Source: Candidatus Intestinimonas merdavium (GTDB taxonomy: Bacteria; Bacillota; Clostridia; Oscillospirales; Oscillospiraceae). Taken from it: a stretch of DNA of 64,000 nucleotides. Made by a program: the position numbers and the translations under genes. The DNA lies in the NCBI GenBank assembly GCA_019115785.1, contig DXCX01000055.1, forward strand, positions 1 to 64,000, in the 5' to 3' direction. The notes beneath the pieces were generated by a model. It was not told where the DNA came from. It saw only the letters and a list, made by a program, of their open reading frames with translations, and ran no database searches. Shown here in pieces: positions 51,099-63,703 of the stretch. The stretch's first letter is position 1, and every line of letters starts with the position of its first letter.

Positions 51099-51623
51099 TC
51101 AGGCAGCATTGAGAGAGGTCTTGATGGACTCCAGGACAGTGTCCTGATCCTCACACATGACCAGAAGAATGGTGCCGTCATCCAAAGTTTCCACCTTGGC
51201 GGCATTGGCAATGTCGTACTGGTCGATGAGGTATTGCTGGAAGTTCTGCTTCTGCTGGTCCACAAAGCCGTTGACGCCCTCCAGAACCTCCTCACTCTTG
51301 CCCTCGGCGGGGAGAATGGCAGCCACGCCATAGGCCTTCACGTTCATGGGAGAGATAGCCACAGCAAAGGCGGCGGTGTTCTCATCGGTGACACCGATGA
51401 GCGGGAGCACCAGGGCGGCCATGTCGTCCTCGGTGGAGGTGACCACCGGATAGGCCTCGTTGAGCTCGGCGTCCCGGGCGGACTCGATGGCGGTCTTGTA
51501 GGCCTCGGTATACTCCTCAGGAGTCTTGGAAGTGGCGCCGGAGGCGTCTTTGTTTCCCCCACAGCCCACCAGGGCAGTGAGGAGCAGAAGGGCGGACAGG
51601 GAAAGAGACAGCATACGTTTCAT
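51099..51623 (-). CDS. DUF4358-type lipoprotein
   Basis: The 174-residue protein begins [29 protein letters not shown], with lipobox LVGC. The body ([110 protein letters not shown]) matches the DUF4358 pattern of clostridial lipoproteins, function unknown. Its ATG overlaps the clpC-like stop (ATGA), so translation is coupled to the Clp ATPase, an odd pairing of a cytoplasmic chaperone with an exported protein. Confidence 0.75.
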
Positions 51624-54082
51624 GGGGATAATTCTCCTTTTGCTTTGTTTTGTTTACAGTCTCCTTGGACGCAGACCGCCGGATTTTGTTCCCCTGGCGC
51701 GGAAAAAATATTTAATTTTGTTTCCTCAGCCAGGACCATGGCGGTCTCACCGGAGGAGAGACCACCCCCGAGGAGCAGCTCGGCGATGGGGTCCTCCACC
51801 TGGGTACGGATGGCCCTCCGTAGGGGACGGGCGCCGTATTCCGGGTCAAAACCCGTATCAGTAAGTCGGTCCAGGGCCTTCTCACTCACCTTGAGCGCCA
51901 CCTGGTGTTCTCCCAGCCGTTGCTCCAGCTGGGAGAGCAGACGTCGGGCGATCCACCGCAGCTCCGGACGGGAGAGCTGCTGGAAGACGATGATCTCGTC
52001 TACCCGGTTGAGAAACTCCGGACGGAAGATCTGCTTGAGCTCGGAGAGGACGGCCTGGCGCAGCTCCTCCGGCGAACGGGTATCTCCCTGCTGGTCGGCA
52101 AAGCCCAGGCGCCCCCCTTTGGCGGTCAGCCGGCGGGCGCCGGCGTTGGAGGTCATGACCACCACCGTGTTCCGGAAATCCACCCTGCGGCCCTGAGCGT
52201 CGGTGACCACGCCGTCCTCCAGGATTTGGAGAAGAATACCCCATACGTCAGGGTGGGCTTTCTCCAGCTCATCAAAGAGAACCACGGAATAGGGCTTGCG
52301 CCGCACCTTTTCTGTGAGCTGGCCGCCCTCGTCGTAGCCCACATAGCCCGGGGGAGAGCCCAGGAGCCGGGAGACGGTGTGCTTTTCCATATACTCGGAC
52401 ATGTCAAAGCGCAGCAGGGCGTCCTCGGTGCCGAACATGGCGGCAGCCAGGGCCTTGCACAGCTCGGTTTTGCCCACGCCGGTGGGGCCCAGGAAGAGGA
52501 AGGAGCCGATGGGACGGTTAGGCTCCTTTAGACCCGCCCGCCCTCGGCGGATGGCTCGGGCCACTGCCCGCACGGCGGCGTCCTGGCCCACCACACGGCG
52601 GTGGAGCTCCCCCTCCAGAGCCATGAGCCGTTCCGATTCGGCCTGGGTCAGGGTACTCACCGGGATACCGGTACAGTCAGCCACCACGGCGGCCACGTCT
52701 TCCGCCTCCACGCCGCGCTTTCCCAGGTCCTGGTGCCAGGCCCGGCACTGGACCGCCAGCTCCCGCCTGAAATCCCGCTCCGCATCCCGGAGCATGGCGG
52801 CCTGCTCATAGCGCTGGCCCCGGATGGCGGTCTCCCGGGCCATGGCGGCCTGGCAGGCCTTTTCTTCCAGCCCCCGCAGAGCGGGCGGGGTCTCCAGCGC
52901 GCCGATCCGCACACGTGCCGCGGCCTCGTCGATGAGGTCTACTGCCTTGTCCGGCAAAAAGCGGTCGGGGAGATAGCGGCAGGAGAGGGTCACCGCCGCC
53001 TCCAGAGCCTGGTCGGAGATGGTCAGCTTGTGGTGGCTTTCATAACGGCTCCGCAGACCCCGCAGGATGGCCAGCGCGTCCTCCTGGCTGGGTTCCTCCA
53101 CCAGCACCGATTGGAAACGCCGCTCCAGAGCGGCATCCTTTTCTATATACTTCCGATATTCCGCCAAGGTGGTGGCCCCAACCACCTGAATTTCGCCCCG
53201 GCTCAGCGCCGGCTTAATGATATTGGCTGCGTCGATGGCGCCCTCGGCGCTGCCCGCCCCCACGATAGTGTGGAGCTCATCCAGAAAGAGAATGATGTCC
53301 CCGGCCCGGCGGACCTCAGCCAGAATGGCCTTGACCCGCTCCTCAAATTCGCCCCGATACTTGGTTCCCGCCACAGTGGCGGAGAGATCCAGGGACAGGA
53401 GCCGTTTGCCCCGGAGGGAGTCGGGAACCTGTCCCGAGACGATCCGCCGGGCCAGCCCCTCCACAATGGCCGTCTTGCCGACGCCGGGCTCGCCAATGAG
53501 GGCGGGGTTGTTCTTCTGACGTCGGGAGAGGATCTGGATGACCCGCCGGATCTCCCTGTCACGCCCGATGACCGGGTCCAGGCTGCCGGCGGCGGCCGAC
53601 CGGGTCAAATCTTTTGCAAATTGTTCTAACAGTTTTTTTTCGCCCCGTTCCGTATGGTCTCGCTCGGGGCGGGGACGGACCGGTTCACTCCAGGGGAGCG
53701 GGCCGGTGGGCGTCTCACCCAGAGCCTTCAGCGTGTCTGTGTAAAGGCCGTTCAGCTGGCCGGTGGCGGCCAGAACCTGGGCGGCGGCGCATGTCCGCAG
53801 GCGGAGAAGCCCCAGAAGCAGGTGCTCGGTGTCCACCTTTCGGAAGCCGGTGCGCAGACATTCCGCCGCCGCCAGCTCCACCGCCTGCCTGCAGTTGGGC
53901 GTCAGGCCCTGGAGGGGGAGGCTCACCGCGCTGCCCGTACCGGAGACCTGACGAACCCCTGCTTCCAGACGCTGGGGAGTGAGGCCGGAGGCCCGGAGGA
54001 TTCGGGCGGCCACACCCTGACCCTCCTGGCAGAGTCCCAACAGCAGGTGCTCCGTTCCCACATAGCTGTGTCCCAGCCGCAC
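51620..54082 (-). CDS. clpC: ClpC-type AAA+ ATPase (Clp protease ATP-binding subunit)
   Basis: ClpC unfolds substrates and feeds them to ClpP. From GTG 54082 the protein has 820 residues: ClpN repeats ([19 protein letters not shown] and [13 protein letters not shown]), AAA-1 with [17 protein letters not shown] (near 197), a short UVR-type middle segment ([21 protein letters not shown]), AAA-2 with [14 protein letters not shown] (near 520), and a ClpP-docking-type LGF in [10 protein letters not shown]. In-frame homology continues upstream ([22 protein letters not shown]) to about 54148, but no ATG, GTG or TTG lies between the in-frame TGA (54152-54154) and GTG 54082. Translation may start at ATC 54145 or 54148 after GAGGTGAGGG, or lose 21-22 residues. 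No ctsR, mcsA or mcsB neighbours. Confidence 0.9.
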
Positions 54083-54524: not shown

Positions 54525-54695
54525 ATGGCCTATGTCATCAGCGATGCTTGCGTGAGCTGCGGCTCCTGTGCCGATTCCTGCCCCATGGGCGCGATTTCTC
54601 AGGGCGACAGCCAGTACGTCATCGACGCCAATACTTGCATCGATTGCGGTTCCTGCGCTGATACCTGCCCCACCGGCGCGATCTCCCAGGGCTAA
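54525..54695 (+). CDS. Clostridial-type 2[4Fe-4S] ferredoxin
   Basis: This 56-residue electron carrier, MAYVISDACVSCGSCADSCPMGAISQGDSQYVIDANTCIDCGSCADTCPTGAISQG, has two symmetric CxxCxxCxxxCP motifs binding two [4Fe-4S] clusters, the exact size of clostridial ferredoxins. It serves pyruvate:ferredoxin oxidoreductase, hydrogenase and similar partners, and could in principle reduce the dehydratase activase. ATG 54525 follows GGAGG; the track start is 15 bp early. Strong promoter and terminator suggest high, monocistronic expression. Confidence 0.95.
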   Translation: MAYVISDACVSCGSCADSCPMGAISQGDSQYVIDANTCIDCGSCADTCPTGAISQG

Positions 54696-54713
54696 CGCAC
54701 AGCATACTTAATG

Positions 54714-54757
54714 AAAAAACAGGGCGGCGCACAATATGTGTGCCGCCCTGTTTTTTC
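54714..54757. terminator. Terminator of the ferredoxin gene
   Basis: AAAAAACAGGGCGGCGCACA/TGTGCCGCCCTGTTTTTT with a short loop; a strong stem with T run. Confidence 0.92.
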
Positions 54758-54786
54758 TTGACAGGTATGTGATCCTCCGGTATCCT
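54758..54786 (+). promoter_or_regulatory. Promoter for the His-rich protein gene
   Basis: Perfect TTGACA, 17 bp and TATCCT; it begins directly after the T run of the ferredoxin terminator. Confidence 0.7.
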
Positions 54787-54813
54787 AGAGCAAACGAAAA
54801 AAGGAGCGAACAT

Positions 54814-55287
54814 ATGGAACATCACCATGAGCACTGCGGCTGCGGCTGCGGGCACGATCACGGCCATGAGCACCATCACGAGCACCACGGTGAGCACGTC
54901 TGCCGGCAGGGGACGCTGACCGAGGCCCAGGCCGCCTTTCTCCATGAGCTGGAGCACCATCACTATCTGCCTCTGGCCCGGTTTCTGATGGAGAGCACGG
55001 TAGAGGACGACTTCTCCAGTGTGTCCATGGCTCCGGTCTACCTTCGGGACCCCGAGGAGACCATGGAGCAGGTAAAGGAGACGGGAGAGCTGCTGCTGGA
55101 CTTGGAGCGCCGGGGCTGGATCACGCTGGACTACGACTATCCGCTGGAGGGCTACCCCTATGCGGAGTACCGGCAGTCGGCTCTGTATGACTATTTCTGC
55201 CGTACAGTGGAGGAGGCCAAGGGCCGGCCGGGCTTCCTGGGGGACACCCCGGTGCTGGAGCTGGGGAGCATCGCCCTGGTGGAATAA
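54814..55287 (+). CDS. His/Cys-rich N-terminus protein, possible metal-binding
   Basis: The 157-residue protein starts MEHHHEHCGCGCGHDHGHEHHHEHHGEHVC, a run of His, Glu and Cys that looks like a nickel, zinc or cobalt store or sensor tail. The rest (LTEAQAAFLHELEHHHYLPLARFLMESTVEDDFSSVSMAPVYLRDPEETMEQVKETGELLLDLERRGWITLDYDYPLEGYPYAEYRQSALYDYFCRTVEEAKGR) looks like a compact helical or winged domain of a type common in Clostridia but not named. ATG 54814 follows AAGGAG. No metal transporter or metallochaperone operon is adjacent. Metal binding is inference from composition. Confidence 0.7.
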   Translation: MEHHHEHCGCGCGHDHGHEHHHEHHGEHVCRQGTLTEAQAAFLHELEHHHYLPLARFLMESTVEDDFSSVSMAPVYLRDPEETMEQVKETGELLLDLERRGWITLDYDYPLEGYPYAEYRQSALYDYFCRTVEEAKGRPGFLGDTPVLELGSIALVE

Positions 55288-55387: not shown

Positions 55388-56353
55388 TCAGTCCAGTTCC
55401 AGCAAAAACTGCTCGATGTGCTGCATAGCCTGGGCCGCCTTTTTCATGGGGAACATCTGGAAAACGTGCCACATATCGGGCCAAACCTCCAGCCGGCAGG
55501 GAGTGCCTGCCTGGACCAGGCGGTCCCGGAGCCTTACCGAGTCGGAGAGCAGGATCTCATTGGTGCCGGCCTGGACGAGGATGGGGGGGAGGTGCCGGAG
55601 ATCGCCGAAGAGGGGGGAGAGCAGAGGGGCGGCGAGGTCTCGTCCGGGGGCGTAGACGCCGCGTACCGCCCGGATATAGTCCATGGTCAGCATGGGGTCA
55701 TCATCCCGGTGCTCCTGATAGGATTTTCCACTGGCAGTCATATCCGTCCAGGGGGAGAGGAGCACCAGCCGCCGGGGGAGAAGCCGGTCGGCGTCCCGGA
55801 GAAGCATGGTGAGCACCAGGGCCAGATTGCCCCCGGCGGAGTCGCCGGCCACCACCACGTCTCTGGCCCCATAGCCCAGGTGCATCAAGTAGTTCCACGC
55901 CTTCATGGCGTCCTCCAGCGGCGCGGGATAGGTGTGCTCCGGTGCAAGACGGTATGCAAAGGCCAGAACCTCATAGCCGGTGACACCGGCCAGCTTGGCG
56001 GCCAGAATCCGGGCATAGCCCAGGTTTCCGCTGGTATATCCGCCGCCATGGCAGTATAGGATGACACGGCGCTTGTCGTGCCCCCGCTCCGGACGCACCC
56101 AGGCGGCGGGCATCCCATCGAGATCAAAGGGCTCCCAGCTCATGCCCAGCATAGGGGCGACCAGCCGCCCCAGCAGCTCCTGGCCCTTACGCTGCCGTTC
56201 CAGGTCGCCCGGGTCCATGGAATCGGGGGAGGTGGCGGAGTGAATGGCCTTGAGGGCGCCCATAACAGCGTTGGTGCGTCTTTGCTCGGCGGTCTGACGG
56301 GCCTCAGGAGAGAGGGGGGACAAGCGTTTATGCCTTTTTTCTTTTTGTTCCAT
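55388..56353 (-). CDS. Alpha/beta-hydrolase, HSL-type esterase
   Basis: The 321-residue protein has the hormone-sensitive-lipase family motifs: oxyanion-hole YCHGGGYTSG (near 100), nucleophile VVVAGDSAGGNLAL (near 165), and LSPWTDMTASG. The acid and His lie near WPDMWHVFQMFP. It probably hydrolyses short acyl esters. It is divergent from the acyltransferase/zinc-ribbon operon across a shared 200-bp control region, so the acyltransferase and the esterase may act on the same ester pool. Start: ATG 56353, with GGAGTTTCCAG upstream. Confidence 0.85.
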   Translation of the reverse strand: MEQKEKRHKRLSPLSPEARQTAEQRRTNAVMGALKAIHSATSPDSMDPGDLERQRKGQELLGRLVAPMLGMSWEPFDLDGMPAAWVRPERGHDKRRVILYCHGGGYTSGNLGYARILAAKLAGVTGYEVLAFAYRLAPEHTYPAPLEDAMKAWNYLMHLGYGARDVVVAGDSAGGNLALVLTMLLRDADRLLPRRLVLLSPWTDMTASGKSYQEHRDDDPMLTMDYIRAVRGVYAPGRDLAAPLLSPLFGDLRHLPPILVQAGTNEILLSDSVRLRDRLVQAGTPCRLEVWPDMWHVFQMFPMKKAAQAMQHIEQFLLELD

Positions 56354-56457
56354 CTGGAAACTCCTGTCTGACCGGACATCATAGTAAATACTGCTGTCCG
56401 ATCGGGGTATTTTGTCTTATCTTACAGGATGATGCCCCAGATTGCAAGGGTGAGCGC

Positions 56458-56486
56458 TTGTGCTCCGATATAGGGTATAGTATAAT
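56458..56486 (+). promoter_or_regulatory. Promoter for the acyltransferase/zinc-ribbon operon
   Basis: TTGTGC, 17 bp and a perfect TATAAT; gives a leader of about 60 nt before GTG 56554. On the esterase side lies a symmetric element CGGACA-N16-TGTCCG (about 56372-56400). Confidence 0.7.
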
Positions 56487-56553
56487 AATACCTGCTGACC
56501 TGTACCATGGGGTCGCGACCTTTGAGCGCCAACAGGAAAGGGGCTGCTGCGCC

Positions 56554-57855
56554 GTGTCCAAGAAGAAGAAACCAGAGTGGTACCGCCTGGACAACGCGGC
56601 TATGATGTACTCTGCCATCCAGAAGGAGAACTATTCCGCCATCTACCGATTTTCAGCGGTGATGACAGATCTGGTGGACCCCAATGCCCTTCAGCGGGCC
56701 ATTGACAGGATCATGCCCCGATTCCCCGGTTTTCAAGTCCATATCAAGCGGGGCTTTTTCTGGTATTATTTTGAGCCCAACGACGCCCCTGGTCCCTTTG
56801 TGAAGGAGGATATGAGCAATCCCTGCCAGCCGGTGCGTTTCCAGGAGGATGACGGCTGGCTCATCCGATTTTTTTATTATGGGCACCGCATCTCCCTGGA
56901 GGTCTTCCACGCTCTGGCCGATGGCGCAGGGGCCCTGACCTTCTTCCGCACCCTGCTGGCGGTCTATCTGCGGGAACTGGGCCACCAGATCCCCAATACC
57001 GGCGGCGTCCTGGACGTGGACGAGTCGCCCTCACCGGAGGAGCAGGAGGACTCCTACTTCCGATATGCCAAATCCCGGGTGCGCCGGGGCATGGGAGAGA
57101 GCAAGGCCTATCAGAATAACGGTACCCCAGAGCCATTCTACACGCTGAACGTGACCATGGGGATGGTACCCCTGGACCGGCTGCGGGAGGTGGCCAGGGG
57201 TTATGGCGCCTCGGTGACGGAATATCTGTCCGCAGTACTCATTGAGTCCATCCTGGCCAAGCAGCGCCGGGAGGGCCGCCGCCGAGAGCTCCCAGTTGCT
57301 CTGGCGGTGCCCATCAATCTGCGTCCCCACTTTCCCTCCCGCACACTGCGCAACTTTATCCTGACGGTGCGGCCCGTCATTGATCCGGAGCTGGGGGACT
57401 ATACCTTCCCAGAGATCGTTTCCCAGGTACACCACCATATGCGCCTGCATATCAGCCGTCAGGAGATGCAGGCGGTCATCACCCGCAACGTGATGCTTCA
57501 GAAAAACAAGCTGCTCCAGCTGGCTCCGGCGCCGCTGAAGAACCTGACCATGGCCATCAGCTACAAGCTGGTGGGCTGTCGTCCCTATTCCACCACCTAT
57601 ACCAACCCCGGCGCTTTCCAGGTGCCGCCGGAGATGGAGCCCCACATCCGGCGTATGGAGGTCATCCTGGGCCAGTCCTACACGCCACGTAGCAACTGTG
57701 CCTCCATCAGCTACGGCAATACCATGGAGATCACCTTCGCCGGTACGGTGAAGGAGTCTGATGTGGAGCGGGACTTCTTTCGCCATCTGGTCCGGGAGGG
57801 TATCCATGTCAAAGTCATTTCCAACCGTCAGGGACCGCTGCATGCGGCCCATTGA
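56554..57855 (+). CDS. Condensation-domain-like acyltransferase (alcohol acetyltransferase-like)
   Basis: The 433-residue protein, SKKKKPEWYRLDNAAMMYSAIQKENYSAIYRFSAVMTDLVDPNALQRAIDRIMPRFPGF, has the BAHD/condensation-domain HxxxDG motif as EVFHALADGAGALTFFRTLL (near residue 125). A second-lobe segment, VTEYLSAVLIESILAKQRR ... ALAVPINLRPHFPSRTLRNF, matches the alcohol-acetyltransferase/NRPS-condensation fold. It transfers an acyl group from a CoA or carrier to an unknown hydroxyl or amine. GTG 56554 follows AGGAAAGGGG; the track's GTG/TTG at 56458 sits in the promoter. The next gene follows after 20 bp. Confidence 0.75.
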   Translation: MSKKKKPEWYRLDNAAMMYSAIQKENYSAIYRFSAVMTDLVDPNALQRAIDRIMPRFPGFQVHIKRGFFWYYFEPNDAPGPFVKEDMSNPCQPVRFQEDDGWLIRFFYYGHRISLEVFHALADGAGALTFFRTLLAVYLRELGHQIPNTGGVLDVDESPSPEEQEDSYFRYAKSRVRRGMGESKAYQNNGTPEPFYTLNVTMGMVPLDRLREVARGYGASVTEYLSAVLIESILAKQRREGRRRELPVALAVPINLRPHFPSRTLRNFILTVRPVIDPELGDYTFPEIVSQVHHHMRLHISRQEMQAVITRNVMLQKNKLLQLAPAPLKNLTMAISYKLVGCRPYSTTYTNPGAFQVPPEMEPHIRRMEVILGQSYTPRSNCASISYGNTMEITFAGTVKESDVERDFFRHLVREGIHVKVISNRQGPLHAAH

Positions 57856-57875
57856 GGTGGGGGAGGAGATACGAA

Positions 57876-58580
57876 ATGTCATACTGTGTCAACTGCGGTG
57901 TGGAGCTGGACCCCACCGCCAGTGCCTGCCCTTTGTGCCAGACCCCCGTGGTCAATCCCCGGCAGCCCGTGGATACCGAGCTGCCGCCGCCCTTTCCAAG
58001 CCGGCGGGAGGAGGTTCAGCCGGTCAATAAAATAGAGGTGGCACTTCTGCTCTCCTCCATGCTGGGCTCGGTGGCGGTGGTCTGCGGCGTACTGAATCTC
58101 TTCTTTCTGCACTCTGGCCGGCCCTGGTCCCTCTACGTCATCGGAGCTGCGGTGATGCTGTGGATCTGGCTGGTGCCGCCCCTCCTCTTTCGGGGGATGC
58201 CGCTGTGGGTCCGTCTGGGCCTGGACGCCTGCGCCGTGGGGGTGTATGTCTACCTGATCTCCATTGACCTGCAAGGTCTTGGATGGTATCTGGGTCTGGC
58301 CCTGCCCATCATCCTCACAGGCGGCGCCATCATGGTGGCCCTGGGACTCATCCTCAGCCGGGGACGCTCTATCCTCACCAGCATCACCCTGATCATTGGA
58401 GCCATCGGTCTCTTTGTTATGAGCATCGAATTTTATGTGGACCACTGGCTCCACCAGGCATACCTCCCCGGCTGGTCCCTGGTGGTGGCCGCTATCTGCG
58501 CAGCGCTCATCATCCCTCTGGTCATCGTCCGCCGTCGTCCCGCCCTCAGGGATGAGGTGCGTCGGCGGTTCCATATGTAA
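57876..58580 (+). CDS. Zinc-ribbon membrane protein (DUF6320-like)
   Basis: The 234-residue protein starts MSYCVNCGVELDPTASACPLCQTPVVNPRQP, a double-CxxC zinc ribbon. A Pro-rich linker and about seven hydrophobic spans follow (from VALLLSSMLGSVAVVCGVL at 55 to VVAAICAALIIPLVIVRRR near 220). This arrangement is annotated as DUF6320 in clostridial genomes and is often seen with an acyltransferase gene (recollection, unverified). ATG 57876 follows GGGAGGAG. The cytoplasmic ribbon may recruit the acyltransferase to the membrane. Function unknown. Confidence 0.7.
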   Translation: MSYCVNCGVELDPTASACPLCQTPVVNPRQPVDTELPPPFPSRREEVQPVNKIEVALLLSSMLGSVAVVCGVLNLFFLHSGRPWSLYVIGAAVMLWIWLVPPLLFRGMPLWVRLGLDACAVGVYVYLISIDLQGLGWYLGLALPIILTGGAIMVALGLILSRGRSILTSITLIIGAIGLFVMSIEFYVDHWLHQAYLPGWSLVVAAICAALIIPLVIVRRRPALRDEVRRRFHM

Positions 58581-58670
58581 GCCGGGCGACCAGGAGAGGA
58601 TAAACTATCAAAATATGAAAGATGCAATGAATATTATGCATAGAGCTGTGAGAATACACGAGAAAATTGG

Positions 58671-58702
58671 GAGGCAATTCGCATATTTATGCGAATTGCC
58701 TC
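58671..58702. promoter_or_regulatory. Perfect palindrome abutting the argG promoter, candidate ArgR operator
   Basis: GAGGCAATTCGCATA-TT-TATGCGAATTGCCTC, 15-bp perfect arms, ends exactly where the -35 begins. Its core ATTCGCATATTTATGCGAAT resembles the A+T-rich dyad ARG boxes bound by ArgR hexamers. A second weaker half-match TGAATATTATGCAT lies 45 bp upstream (58627). A transcript hairpin is the alternative, but it lies upstream of the promoter. Confidence 0.6.
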
Positions 58703-58731
58703 TTGCATTTTTGCGGCGGACGTGGTACACT
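58703..58731 (+). promoter_or_regulatory. Promoter for the arg operon
   Basis: TTGCAT, 17 bp and TACACT, about 35 bp upstream of ATG 58766; adjoins the palindrome. Confidence 0.65.
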
Positions 58732-58765: not shown

Positions 58766-59992
58766 ATGACAGATCACAAGGACATTAAGAAGGTCGTTCT
58801 CGCCTATTCCGGCGGATTGGATACATCCATCATCATTCCCTGGCTGAAGGAGAACTACAATAACTGCGAGGTCATCGCCGTCTCCGGCGACGTAGGCCAG
58901 GGCACGGAGTTGGACGGTTTGGAGGAGAAGGCCATCAAGACCGGTGCCTCCAAGCTCTATGTGGAGGACCTCACCGACGAGATGGTGGATGAGGTCATTA
59001 TCCCCTCCATGAAGATGGGGGCCAAGTATGAGCAGTACCTGCTGGGTACCGCCTTTGCCCGGCCCATCATTGCCAAGCGCCTGGTGGAGATTGCCAAGAA
59101 GGAAGGGGCCGACGCTGTCTGCCACGGCTGCACCGGCAAGGGCAACGACCAGGTCCGCTTTGAGCTGGCCATCAAGCGCTTTGCCCCTGACATGAAGATC
59201 ATTGCCCCCTGGCGGGAGTGGGACATCAAGGGCCGGGACGAGGAGATCGACTATGCCGAGGCCCACGACATCCCCCTGAAGATCAGCAGGGAGACCAACT
59301 ACTCCAAGGACAAGAATCTGTGGCATCTCTCTCACGAGGGCCTGGACCTGGAGGACCCCTCCAACGAGCCGCTCTATGAGAAGGAGGGCTTTTTGGAGAT
59401 GGGGGTAAGTCCCATCGCCGCGCCCGACAAGCCCACCTATGTTACCCTGGAGTTTGTCAAGGGCGTGCCCGTGGCCATCGACGGGGAAAAGATGAAGGCC
59501 AGCGACATCATCCGCAAGCTCAACAAGCTGGGCGGTGAGAACGGCATCGGTCTGCTGGACATCGTGGAGAACCGGCTGGTGGGCATGAAGGACCGGGGCG
59601 TCTATGAGACGCCCGGCGGTACCATCCTCTACCACGCCCATGAGGTGCTGGAGATGATCACTCTGGACAAGGACACCGCCCATATGAAGAGCAAGCTGGC
59701 GGTGGACTTCGCCGACCTGGTCTACAACGGCAAGTGGTTTACCCCCCTGCGGGAGGCTCTGTCCGCCTTTGCCGACAAGACCCAGGAGCATGTCACCGGC
59801 ACTGTGAAGCTCAAGCTTTACAAGGGCAACATCATCAACGCCGGCGTCACCTCTCCCGAGACCCTCTACTCTGAGGAGCTGGTCACCTTTGAGGAGAGCG
59901 ATTACAACCAGGATGACGCCACCGGCTTTATCAACCTGTGGGGTCTGCCCGACACCGTCCAGGCGCTGCGGGAGCAGGGTAAGCTGAAATAA
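58766..59992 (+). CDS. argG: Argininosuccinate synthase
   Basis: ArgG condenses citrulline and aspartate with ATP in arginine synthesis. The 408-residue protein ([31 protein letters not shown]) carries the PP-loop [35 protein letters not shown] and [19 protein letters not shown]. Length is typical. The ATG at 58766 follows GGAGG; the track's 58667 start lies within the palindrome region. It is first in argG-argH-argC-argJ-argB. Confidence 0.96.
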
Positions 59993-60007
59993 GAAACGGA
60001 TCACTAA

Positions 60008-60045
60008 GGGACGCCGCGCCGGCCAGCGGGCCGGCACGGCGTCCC
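60008..60045. repeat. Intergenic hairpin between argG and argH
   Basis: GGGACGCCG-C-GCCGGCC-AGCG-GGCCGGC-A-CGGCGTCCC, a very stable stem with one mismatch and no T run. It may protect the argG mRNA end or attenuate read-through into argH. Confidence 0.6.
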
Positions 60046-60073
60046 TATCCCCATACATAAGGAGCGAAGGATC

Positions 60074-61459
60074 ATGAAACTTTGGGCAGGACGCTTCCAA
60101 AAGGAGACCGATACTGCGGTCAACGATTTCAACTCCTCCATCAGCTTTGACGCCCGGCTCTATCAGGAGGACATTGCCGGCTCCATTGCCCACGCCGCCA
60201 TGCTGGGCAAGCAGGGCATCATTGAGGAGCACGAGGCGGAAAAGATCATCGAGGGCCTCAAGGCCATCCTGGCCGACATCGAGGCAGGTAAAGTGGAGTT
60301 CTCCGAGGAAAATGAGGACATCCACATGAATATCGAAAGTGAGCTCACCGCTCGCATCGGGGATACCGGCAAGCGCCTCCACACCGCCCGGAGCCGGAAC
60401 GATCAGGTGGCGGTGGACTTCCGGCTCTACGTCAAAAAGGAGATTCCTGTTATCATCGGTATGGTGCTGGATCTGGAGAAGGTCCTCATCAAGAAGGCCC
60501 AGGAAAACCTGGATGCCGTCATGCCGGGCTATACTCACCTCCAGCGAGCCCAGCCCACCACATTTGCACACTACATGATGGCCTACGCCAACATGCTCAA
60601 GCGGGATGTGACCCGGCTGGAGGACTGCCTGGAGCGTATGGACGAGTGCCCCCTGGGAGCCGGTGCCCTGGCCACCTCCACCTATCCGGTGGACCGGTTC
60701 CAGACCGCGGCCGCCCTGGGCTTTGGGAAACCCACCGACAACTCCCTGGACTCGGTTTCCGATCGAGACTTTGCCATTGAGTTCACCTCGGCGCTCTCCA
60801 TCCTCATGATGCACCTGTCCCGGTTTTCTGAGGAGATCATCCTCTGGTGCTCCTGGGAGTTCAAGTTCGTGGAGCTGGACGACGCCTACTCCACCGGCTC
60901 CTCCATCATGCCTCAGAAGAAGAATCCAGACGTGGCCGAGCTGGTCCGGGGCAAGACGGGGCGGGTGTACGGCTCCCTCATCACCCTCCTTACCATCATG
61001 AAAGGGCTTCCCCTTGCCTATAACAAGGACATGCAGGAGGACAAGGAGCCCGTCTTTGACGCCATCGATACGGTGGAACAGTGCCTCCCCGTCTTTGCCG
61101 CCATGGTGAACACCCTCACTGTCAAGCACAAGAACATGCAGAGAGCGGCGGCTGGCGGCTTCATCAACGCCACCGACTGCGCCGACTATCTGGTGAAGAA
61201 GGGGCTGCCCTTCCGGGATGCCTACATGATCGTGGGCCGGCTGGTCCACATGTGCATCAAGACTGGTGAGACGCTGGATACCTTGCCCCTCAAGGACTTC
61301 CAGTCCGTGTCCGGCGCCTTTGGCCCCGATGTATATCAGGCTCTGGAGCTCAAGACCTGCGTGGGAGGCCGGAAGGTCTATGGCGGCCCCGCCCCCGACT
61401 CTGTCAAGATACAGATTGAACACATCCAGCAGTTCGTGGAGGCGCGTGAGCAGAAATGA
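60074..61459 (+). CDS. argH: Argininosuccinate lyase
   Basis: ArgH cleaves argininosuccinate to arginine and fumarate. The 461-residue protein of the fumarase/aspartase superfamily shows MKLWAGRFQKETDTAVNDFNSSI, TARSRNDQVAVDFRLYVK, PGYTHLQRAQPTTFAHY (catalytic His) and the superfamily signature GSSIMPQKKNPDVAEL (catalytic Ser). ATG 60074 follows GGAGCGAAGG. It overlaps argC by 4 bp (ATGA). Confidence 0.97.
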   Translation: MKLWAGRFQKETDTAVNDFNSSISFDARLYQEDIAGSIAHAAMLGKQGIIEEHEAEKIIEGLKAILADIEAGKVEFSEENEDIHMNIESELTARIGDTGKRLHTARSRNDQVAVDFRLYVKKEIPVIIGMVLDLEKVLIKKAQENLDAVMPGYTHLQRAQPTTFAHYMMAYANMLKRDVTRLEDCLERMDECPLGAGALATSTYPVDRFQTAAALGFGKPTDNSLDSVSDRDFAIEFTSALSILMMHLSRFSEEIILWCSWEFKFVELDDAYSTGSSIMPQKKNPDVAELVRGKTGRVYGSLITLLTIMKGLPLAYNKDMQEDKEPVFDAIDTVEQCLPVFAAMVNTLTVKHKNMQRAAAGGFINATDCADYLVKKGLPFRDAYMIVGRLVHMCIKTGETLDTLPLKDFQSVSGAFGPDVYQALELKTCVGGRKVYGGPAPDSVKIQIEHIQQFVEAREQK

Positions 61460-62394
61460 AGCCAAAAGTCTACATCGACGGCCAGGAGGGCACCACCGGA
61501 CTTCAGATCTATGAGCGTCTGGGGGGGCGGGACGACATCGAGCTACTCCTTATCGAACCTGACAAGCGGAAAGACTTGACAGAACGGAAAAAGTTGCTCA
61601 ATGCCGCCGATCTGTGCTTCCTGTGCCTGCCCGACGCCGCCGCCGTGGAGGCGGTGGGACTGATCGAAAATGAGAAGACCAAGGTCATCGACGCCTCCAC
61701 CGCCCATAGGACAGCGGAGGGATGGACTTACGGCTTTCCAGAGCTGCTGGCCGGCCAGCGTCAGCGGGTGCGTTTTGCCAAACGGGTGGCCAACCCCGGC
61801 TGTCACGCCACCGGTTTTCTAGTCTCAGCCGCACCTTTGACGGCCATGGGGGTCCTGCCAAAGGAGGCTGCCATCACCTGCTTTTCTCTCACCGGCTATT
61901 CCGGGGGAGGGAAGAAGATGATTGCCGACTATGAGACAGGGGAGAAAGCGGAAGACCTTTACAGCCCCAGGATTTACGGGACCAACCTCCGCCACAAGCA
62001 CCTGCCGGAGATGAAGGCCTATGCCGGCCTTACTCAGCCGCCGGTTTTCTGCCCGGTGGTGGATGACTACTATAAAGGTATGGCCACCACGCTGATGCTC
62101 CCCGTCTCCCTATTGTCCGGCCACCCCACAGCGGAGGATGTGTGCGAGATGTTGGAGCGGTACTATGAGGGAGAGGCTTTGGTCAAGGTGCTGCCCTACC
62201 AGAAGGAGAGGGCCTTCCTATGCGCCAACGCTATGGCGGGGAAGGACAGCCTGGAGCTCATCGTCTCCGGCCACGAGGAGCAGATTATCATTACGGCCCG
62301 GTTTGACAACCTGGGCAAAGGTGCCTCTGGCGCGGCGGTCCAGAATATGAACCTGATGCTGGGGTTCCCCGAGACCACGGGGCTGGCCCTGTGA
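61456..62394 (+). CDS. argC: N-acetyl-gamma-glutamyl-phosphate reductase (type 2)
   Basis: ArgC reduces N-acetylglutamyl phosphate to the semialdehyde with NADPH. The 312-residue protein starts MKPKVYIDGQEGTTGLQIYERL and has the catalytic Cys in RVANPGCHATGF, FSLTGYSGGGKKMI and the His region RHKHLPEM. The IDGQEGTTG start and roughly 310-residue length mark the shorter type 2 ArgC. Its ATG overlaps the argH stop, so translation is coupled. The placement between argH and argJ suits a single arginine operon. Confidence 0.94.
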   Translation: MKPKVYIDGQEGTTGLQIYERLGGRDDIELLLIEPDKRKDLTERKKLLNAADLCFLCLPDAAAVEAVGLIENEKTKVIDASTAHRTAEGWTYGFPELLAGQRQRVRFAKRVANPGCHATGFLVSAAPLTAMGVLPKEAAITCFSLTGYSGGGKKMIADYETGEKAEDLYSPRIYGTNLRHKHLPEMKAYAGLTQPPVFCPVVDDYYKGMATTLMLPVSLLSGHPTAEDVCEMLERYYEGEALVKVLPYQKERAFLCANAMAGKDSLELIVSGHEEQIIITARFDNLGKGASGAAVQNMNLMLGFPETTGLAL

Positions 62395-62440
62395 GGCAAC
62401 GGCGGTGCAGCCGCCGGAATGACAAAGGAGTTGTGTCGAT

Positions 62441-63703
62441 ATGAAACAGATCTCTGGCGGCGTGGCCGCCCCCAAGGGATTTACCGCCTCCGGTGTCCAC
62501 TGTGGCGTGAAGAAGGGAAAGGGAGACGGCAATCAGCCCCCTATGAGCAAGATGCCCGAGGTGCTGGAGGGGAAAAAGGACCTGGCCCTCATCGTCTCCG
62601 AGCAGCCCTGTACTGCCGCTGCGGTCTATACCATGAACCGGGTGAAGGCGGCCCCCCTGTATGTCACCATGGATCACCTGGAAAACGGAGAGGCCCAGGC
62701 CATCGTAGCCAACTCCGGCAACGCCAATGCCTGTGCTCCTAATAGCCATGAGCATGCCGAGGAGATGTGCCAGCTGGCTGCCCAGGCCACCGGCCTGAAG
62801 GCATCCGACTTTGTGGTGGCATCCACCGGTGTCATTGGCCAGGAGCTCAACATCTCCGCCATTCAGGCCGGGCTCCCCGCCTGTGCAGCAGCCCTCTCCA
62901 AGGACGGTTCTGACGCCGCGGCCAATGCCATCATGACCACTGATACAGTGAAGAAGGAGATGGCGGTGACCTGTTCTGTGGGTGGTAAGACGGTGACCAT
63001 TGGCGCCATCGCCAAGGGCTCCGGTATGATCCACCCCAATATGGGTACCATGCTGTGCTTCGTCACCACCGACTGCGCCATCACCCATGAGATGCTCTCC
63101 GACGCCCTCCACGAGATCGTGCCCCGGACCTTCAACCGGGTGACGGTAGATGGGGATACCTCCACCAACGACATGTGCGTGGTGCTGGCCAACGGCATGG
63201 CGGAGAACGATCTCATCGAGTGGAAGGACGACGGTTATACCGTCTTTTACAAGACGCTTTACAGCGTCTTTGAGCAGATGGCCCGGTCTATCGCCGCTGA
63301 CGGAGAGGGAGCCAGCAAGCTCATTACCTGCACGGTAGGCAGGGCCCGCAGTGAGGAGGCTGCCGAGCGCCTGGCCAAGGCGGTGGTGGGCTCCTCTCTG
63401 GTGAAGGCCGCCATGTTTGGTTCCGATGCCAACTGGGGCCGAGTCCTCTGTGCCATGGGCTACTCCAAGGCGCCCTTCCGCCCTGAGTTTGTGGACGTAA
63501 AGTTTGCCTCTGCTGTGGGAGAGATCCTGGTGTGCCAGCAAGGAGCCGGAGTGGACTTCGATGAAGAGGCCGCAAAGAGCATCCTCAGCCAGGATGAGGT
63601 GGTCATCCATGTGAATCTCAATGAGGGTGAGCACGAGGCCACCTGCTGGGGCTGCGACCTTACCTATGACTATGTGAAGATCAACGGGGACTACCGGACC
63701 TGA
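62441..63703 (+). CDS. argJ: Bifunctional glutamate N-acetyltransferase/ornithine acetyltransferase
   Basis: ArgJ recycles the acetyl group from acetylornithine to glutamate and, in bifunctional forms, also uses acetyl-CoA. The 420-residue precursor has GVHCGVKKGKGD, VKAAPLYVT, ANSGNANACAP, GVIGQELN, and the self-cleavage site KGSGMIHPNMGTMLCFVTTD, where the Thr becomes the new N-terminus of the beta chain. DTSTNDMCVVLANG and FGSDANWGRVLCAMGYS follow. Start: ATG 62441 after AAAGGAG. No separate argA is seen, consistent with the cyclic pathway. Confidence 0.96.
   Translation: MKQISGGVAAPKGFTASGVHCGVKKGKGDGNQPPMSKMPEVLEGKKDLALIVSEQPCTAAAVYTMNRVKAAPLYVTMDHLENGEAQAIVANSGNANACAPNSHEHAEEMCQLAAQATGLKASDFVVASTGVIGQELNISAIQAGLPACAAALSKDGSDAAANAIMTTDTVKKEMAVTCSVGGKTVTIGAIAKGSGMIHPNMGTMLCFVTTDCAITHEMLSDALHEIVPRTFNRVTVDGDTSTNDMCVVLANGMAENDLIEWKDDGYTVFYKTLYSVFEQMARSIAADGEGASKLITCTVGRARSEEAAERLAKAVVGSSLVKAAMFGSDANWGRVLCAMGYSKAPFRPEFVDVKFASAVGEILVCQQGAGVDFDEEAAKSILSQDEVVIHVNLNEGEHEATCWGCDLTYDYVKINGDYRT

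Follow-up and report, generated by a model that had tools for sequence, protein, structure and literature searches.

The trio of genes described here, which encode an acyltransferase (AT), a membrane protein of the DUF6320 family and an HSL-type esterase within a 64,000-nt stretch of DNA (the window) from a gut Oscillospiraceae genome, recurs across many Bacillota with its two enzymes sometimes fused, and is therefore probably a real, uncharacterised reversible-acylation system of a small molecule. We put at about one in two the probability that the locus is a membrane-associated module that would work like the yeast Atf2/Say1 pair, which is a claim on mechanism and not on family. An earlier note on this DNA had suggested an uncharacterised acylation system: one functional unit stands, being found in many families, in several arrangements and with fusions, and with both the forming and the cleaving sites intact, while the regulatory dyad and the seven membrane spans of that proposal do not.

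The three genes and their control region

All three genes read in the window by the earlier note are present: the esterase (321 aa) at 55388-56353 on the minus strand, AT, which starts with GTG, at 56554-57855 on the plus strand, and the DUF6320 gene at 57876-58580, also on the plus strand. Their arrangement is likewise as described, the esterase (start at 56353) being divergent from AT with 200 bp separating the two start codons, and the TGA stop of AT being followed after exactly 20 bp, within which lies a GGGGAGGAG ribosome-binding site, by the ATG at 57876. A terminator-like stem of 17 pairs with a T run (58668-58705, plus strand) stands between DUF6320 and argG, so that the likely operon consists of two genes with a divergent third. 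A putative AT promoter, TTGTGC-N17-TATAAT (56458-56486, plus strand), scores under the threshold of the consensus scanner; in the alignment of the intergenic region, congeners show a similar CTTGTG...TAGTATAAT. Directly past the terminator runs argG-argH-argC-argJ (58766-63703, plus strand), a linkage retained in several congeners. The stretch 54526-55287 (plus strand) holds a ferredoxin-like protein of 56 residues with two CxxCxxCxxxC clusters, and the protein beside it, whose N-terminus (MEHHHEHCGCGCGHDHGHEHHHEHHGEH) is rich in His and Cys, is likely metal-binding and gives no Pfam match. The ferredoxin-like gene adjoins a ClpC/ClpB-like double AAA+ ATPase with a Clp N-terminal region (51620-54082, minus strand); ClpC/ClpB-like genes are also found near the module in some relatives.

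The dyad CGGACA-N16-TGTCCG, to which a role in control had been attributed, is present at 56373-56400 and is probably a product of chance. Shuffling of the 203-bp region yields a perfect 6+6 inverted repeat with a 4-24 bp spacer in 51% of cases, and 74% of 203-bp pieces drawn at random from the window contain such a repeat. The dyad is missing from 199 of 200 loci searched, including that of a congener with a 96% identical AT, the one match (L001) being the window's own copy, and genome-wide it has 12 one-mismatch matches versus 6 for the reversed control. Being at chance level and restricted to its own locus, it was rejected as a conserved operator.

The HxxxDG motif of AT is intact, as had been claimed: it reads HALADG at 56908-56925, and H118, D122 and G123 (numbered from the residue after the start) are invariant in 48 relatives, together with R256, N266, K328, N350 and G352. 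The AlphaFold2 model (pLDDT 92), a confident one of condensation/PapA/BAHD fold, is matched by Foldseek, with TM scores of 0.5-0.68, to condensation domains, PapA5, plant HCT and a mannosylerythritol-lipid acyltransferase. By its HxxxDG motif and the two-lobed fold of the model, AT is a member of the CoA-dependent acyltransferase/condensation superfamily, which takes in the PapA and AATase enzymes. Sequence searches with the window AT gave no match under E 0.01 in Pfam, NCBIfam or the PDB, and none of its PDB relatives is significant by sequence. AATase (PF07247) is matched at E<=0.01 by 25 of the 48 homologues and PapA_C by nine, the window AT failing both cut-offs; against PapA (PF16911) it reaches 11.9 bits for a cut-off of 30, the likeness being one of fold only (PapA5, TM 0.61). 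No homologue among the 48 matches the WS/DGAT Pfam family, and the window motif is FHALADG rather than HHxxxDG, so that we place AT in none of these families.

We also observed a sister clade (L063, L064, L096, L097, L100 and L226, as well as L080 and L094) whose ATs are extended at the N-terminus, about 80-125 residues preceding the first conserved motif in L063, L097 and L096. These ATs pair with DUF6320 proteins that have no zinc ribbon, and the long N-terminus with the ribbonless partner may reflect an exchange of the portion through which the two proteins join. No HAAS-type domain was confirmed in the long ATs at E<=0.01. The 723-aa AT reading frame of L081/L182 was discarded as a fusion, its first ~295 codons having no esterase similarity and being probably non-coding.

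The ester-cleaving enzyme announced by the earlier note is an HSL-type (Abhydrolase_3) member, with 182.7 bits (E 1e-53) against PF07859, a PDB match to EstD11 (E 5e-58) and a complete active site: the oxyanion motif H102GGG (56050-56039), the nucleophile S172 (55840-55838) in GDSAGG, a form of GxSAGG, the acid E266 (55558-55556) and H296 (55468-55466). The triad and the oxyanion motif are invariant across 25 linked esterases. The esterase of the module is soluble, without N-terminal membrane anchor or membrane span. Against the named NCBIfam HSL subfamilies the window enzyme stays below cut-off, and BD-FAE is a secondary match. Say1_Mug180 is matched by all 25 linked esterases, ranking below Abhydrolase_3; this match, as that of AT homologues to AATase, is at superfamily level, and a sterol substrate does not follow from it.

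The third gene encodes a full-length DUF6320 protein (PF19845, 45.1 bits versus a gathering threshold of 29.9, E 1e-11, model positions 1-186 of 186). The zinc ribbon is there, CxxC...CxxC at 57885-57938 with C4, C7, C18 and C21 invariant, and its cytoplasmic location is favoured by the predicted loop-charge pattern, whose positive cytosolic loops place both the ribbon and the C-terminus in the cytosol. In place of about seven membrane spans, the model (pLDDT 92) gives six helices (about 58029-58535) plus a C-terminal helix. The tail ends in RRRFHM, most homologues finishing in [RK][FLM][HF]x, and the position of W84, W137 and W200 at or near the starts of helices 2, 4 and 6 hints at a hairpin repeated three times. 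Neither sequence nor fold searches detected a solved relative. To our knowledge the Pfam family has no assigned function, and no paper on DUF6320 or on the trio was found in the literature searched, most subscription journals lying outside that search. At one locus (L223, 9479-10137), where AT and the esterase are both intact, the DUF6320 gene is split between two frames, possibly as a pseudogene or through an assembly error.

Conservation and rearrangement of the neighbourhood

Conservation confined to close strains had been named in advance as an outcome that would speak against a system of this kind; the trio was found in many families, and also outside the class. AT was found in each of the ten congeners tested and, overall, in 32 of 60 relatives, and DUF6320 in 72 of 197 genomes of the order, 18 of 399 of the phylum and none of 14 control genomes; the occurrence search covered the best 80 of 559 contig matches, all from Bacillota. 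Loci were sampled by similarity, related species included, with reading frames called by a simple script, and pooling of the wide loci, with one kept per AT sequence, left 146 distinct loci. DUF6320 lies directly 3' of AT in 143 of them. Since most loci had been fetched via AT, a reverse check from the DUF6320 model was run: AT is adjacent in 15 of the 16 phylum-level loci so fetched, and it lies beside DUF6320 in 38 of 40 wide loci, the majority of these having been drawn by the DUF6320 search at order level.

An HSL-type esterase is found within 2.6 kb in 74 of the 146 loci: 42 have it upstream on the same strand, 21 divergent and 11 downstream. Nine more loci encode it as a fusion with AT. 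These 83 loci stand against zero to three HSL-type homologues per genome (ten genomes), and the neighbourhood is thus far beyond chance. The AT tree, a quick one with several weak branches and hence approximate, implies a minimum of 31 changes in esterase linkage and of three in fusion. The other 63 loci have no esterase within 2.6 kb, eight of them being on short contigs; among congeners without a linked esterase, orthologues lie elsewhere in G008 and G010 and none was found in G007, so that AT and DUF6320 can apparently act alone.

The fusion proteins, of ~720-740 aa, carry both the esterase and AT domains (L172, L174, L181, L188, L192, L087-L090 and L093, two being identical). Both active sites are retained in L172 and L174, which puts both reactions in one compartment. 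At some loci, hydrolases of other types stand beside AT and DUF6320: other alpha/beta-hydrolases adjoin the pair in L117, L076 and L224, a pectinacetylesterase match lies near it in L222 and a sub-threshold GDSL match in L175. Hydrolysis itself therefore seems to be the retained function. On a Subdoligranulum variabile plasmid (L229, 10598-13942), a GDSL-type hydrolase, recognised by motif, occupies the usual place of the HSL esterase directly before AT and DUF6320.

No fourth gene is conserved beside the trio in the ORF clusters of 60 wide loci or in the flanks of the esterase-less loci, and the same clusters contain no conserved glycosyltransferase, export or envelope gene, so that the context does not name the substrate, be it the surface polymer, lipid or exported metabolite suggested by the earlier note or another compound. 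On a 52-kb plasmid of Anaerotruncus colihominis VE303-02 (L228, 12001-14866), the trio is followed after 22 bp by a diacylglycerol-kinase-family gene, a possible hint of a lipid substrate; seen at this one locus only, it was rejected as a conserved neighbour naming the substrate. Many of the hosts are gut bacteria, and some genomes are of other origin, such as the soil MAG L139.

Proposed reversible acylation and its alternatives

That an enzyme forming esters and one cleaving them, each with its active site intact, are fused within a single compartment finds its best explanation in the reversible acylation of one substrate or in an acyl relay between substrates. The former has a documented precedent in yeast Atf2/Say1 (PMC4076087). 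We prefer it because the esterase has no anchor, occurs joined to the cytosolic AT in some species and can seemingly be exchanged for other hydrolases, an indication that what matters is hydrolysis and not a specific transesterase. We infer the directions of the reactions, the acyl-CoA donor, the class of the acceptor and the role of DUF6320 as follows. In the cytosol, H118 of the HxxxDG motif of AT would act as general base for the transfer of an acyl group, probably short and donated by a CoA thioester, to a hydroxyl or an amine of a membrane-partitioning small molecule. DUF6320, which the earlier note had cast as a membrane scaffold and whose ribbon and [RK][FLM][HF]x tail would face the cytosol, may bring AT to the membrane, move the product into or across it, or do both. 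The HSL esterase would strip the acyl group, and the enzyme pair would thereby decide between a masked (or exported) and a free molecule.

The alternative that survives best, which we nevertheless consider unlikely, is the assembly of an envelope lipid or glycolipid as by mycobacterial PapA3, Chp2 and MmpL10, where AT would acylate a precursor at the cytosolic face, the hydrolase would transesterify it and DUF6320 would aid its translocation. The PapA3/Chp2 pair provides the precedent for an acyl relay between substrates (PMC4183827), and the PapA_C matches of nine of the 48 homologues, the presence of PapA5 and the mannosylerythritol-lipid acyltransferase among the fold matches and the diacylglycerol-kinase-family gene after the trio on one plasmid are consistent with it. 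However, the surroundings hold no conserved PKS, fatty-acyl ligase, MmpL or glycosyltransferase, the esterase does not have the N-terminal membrane anchor borne by Chp2 (PMC4183827), and it is fused to a cytosolic AT in some species and substituted by other hydrolase types in others.

A further reading is unlikely enough to be advanced as speculation: the module could be a bacterial acylation/deacylation gate for hydrophobic alcohols (e.g., steroids, bile-acid derivatives, plant phenols or an endogenous prenol), with DUF6320 as a new membrane partner or exporter of acylated small molecules, widespread in gut Clostridia.

Quite improbable is the intracellular handling of dietary acylated sugars or plant phenolic esters, which the esterase would release and AT re-esterify or detoxify, with DUF6320 acting in transport. 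A few loci (L169, L175, L222 and L062) do lie near glycoside hydrolases, with GDSL or pectinacetylesterase-like genes, and the BD-FAE match and the many gut hosts point the same way, but most loci, that of the window included, have no carbohydrate genes nearby, and the trio also occurs in non-gut genomes such as the soil MAG. The storage of neutral lipids, with AT as a WS/DGAT-like maker of wax esters or triacylglycerols that the esterase would mobilise, is very improbable: the pairing of an HxxxDG acyltransferase with an HSL-type hydrolase would fit it, and the AT-family profile finds the DGAT structure 6chj at E 0.12, a weak match that is not significant, whereas the motif is FHxxxDG against HHxxxDG in WS/DGAT and the Pfam matches to that family are 0 of 48. 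That the esterase is a coincidental neighbour of the AT-DUF6320 operon is scarcely credible, for although it has its own divergent transcript in the window, and although 63 of 146 loci lack it or have it unlinked (it lies elsewhere in G008 and G010), the nine distinct fusion loci strongly disfavour coincidence, and the several arrangements, the conservation outside the class and the mere zero to three HSL homologues per genome also speak against it.

Our observations provide a first functional context for DUF6320 and define, in many gut Clostridia, an enzyme trio with natural esterase-acyltransferase fusions. If the true acceptor were a host steroid, a bile acid, a dietary phenol or a lipid of the bacterium itself, the trio would be a directly testable system of chemical modification in the gut.

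Comparison with known systems

The kinds of enzymes involved are themselves known, and their combination is undocumented in the literature searched. Another acetylation-then-deacetylation precedent would be Bar/Bah of bialaphos; no paper in support of it was found, and our argument does not draw on it. The third gene is a full-length member of Pfam DUF6320 (PF19845), and its pairing with AT and an esterase is described from the present data. The esterase shares with HSL (family IV) enzymes such as EstD11 the fold, HGGG, GxSAGG and the triad, and differs from them in being linked or fused to an acyltransferase.

With the mycobacterial PapA/Chp/MmpL systems, the module has in common a PapA-fold acyltransferase, an alpha/beta-hydrolase and an integral membrane protein. 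It differs in that PKS, FadD and MmpL are not linked and no other gene is conserved beside the trio, in that no solved membrane protein is detectably related to DUF6320, and in that its hydrolase is unanchored and can fuse with AT. In yeast, Atf2 promiscuously acetylates sterols, and the acetylated sterols are secreted unless Say1 deacetylates them (PMC4076087). The module resembles this pair in opposing an AATase-type acyltransferase to an HSL-type deacetylase at or near the membrane, the families matching at superfamily level, whereas it is bacterial, its genes are linked or fused, its esterase is soluble and without a span, and it has in DUF6320 an additional partner.
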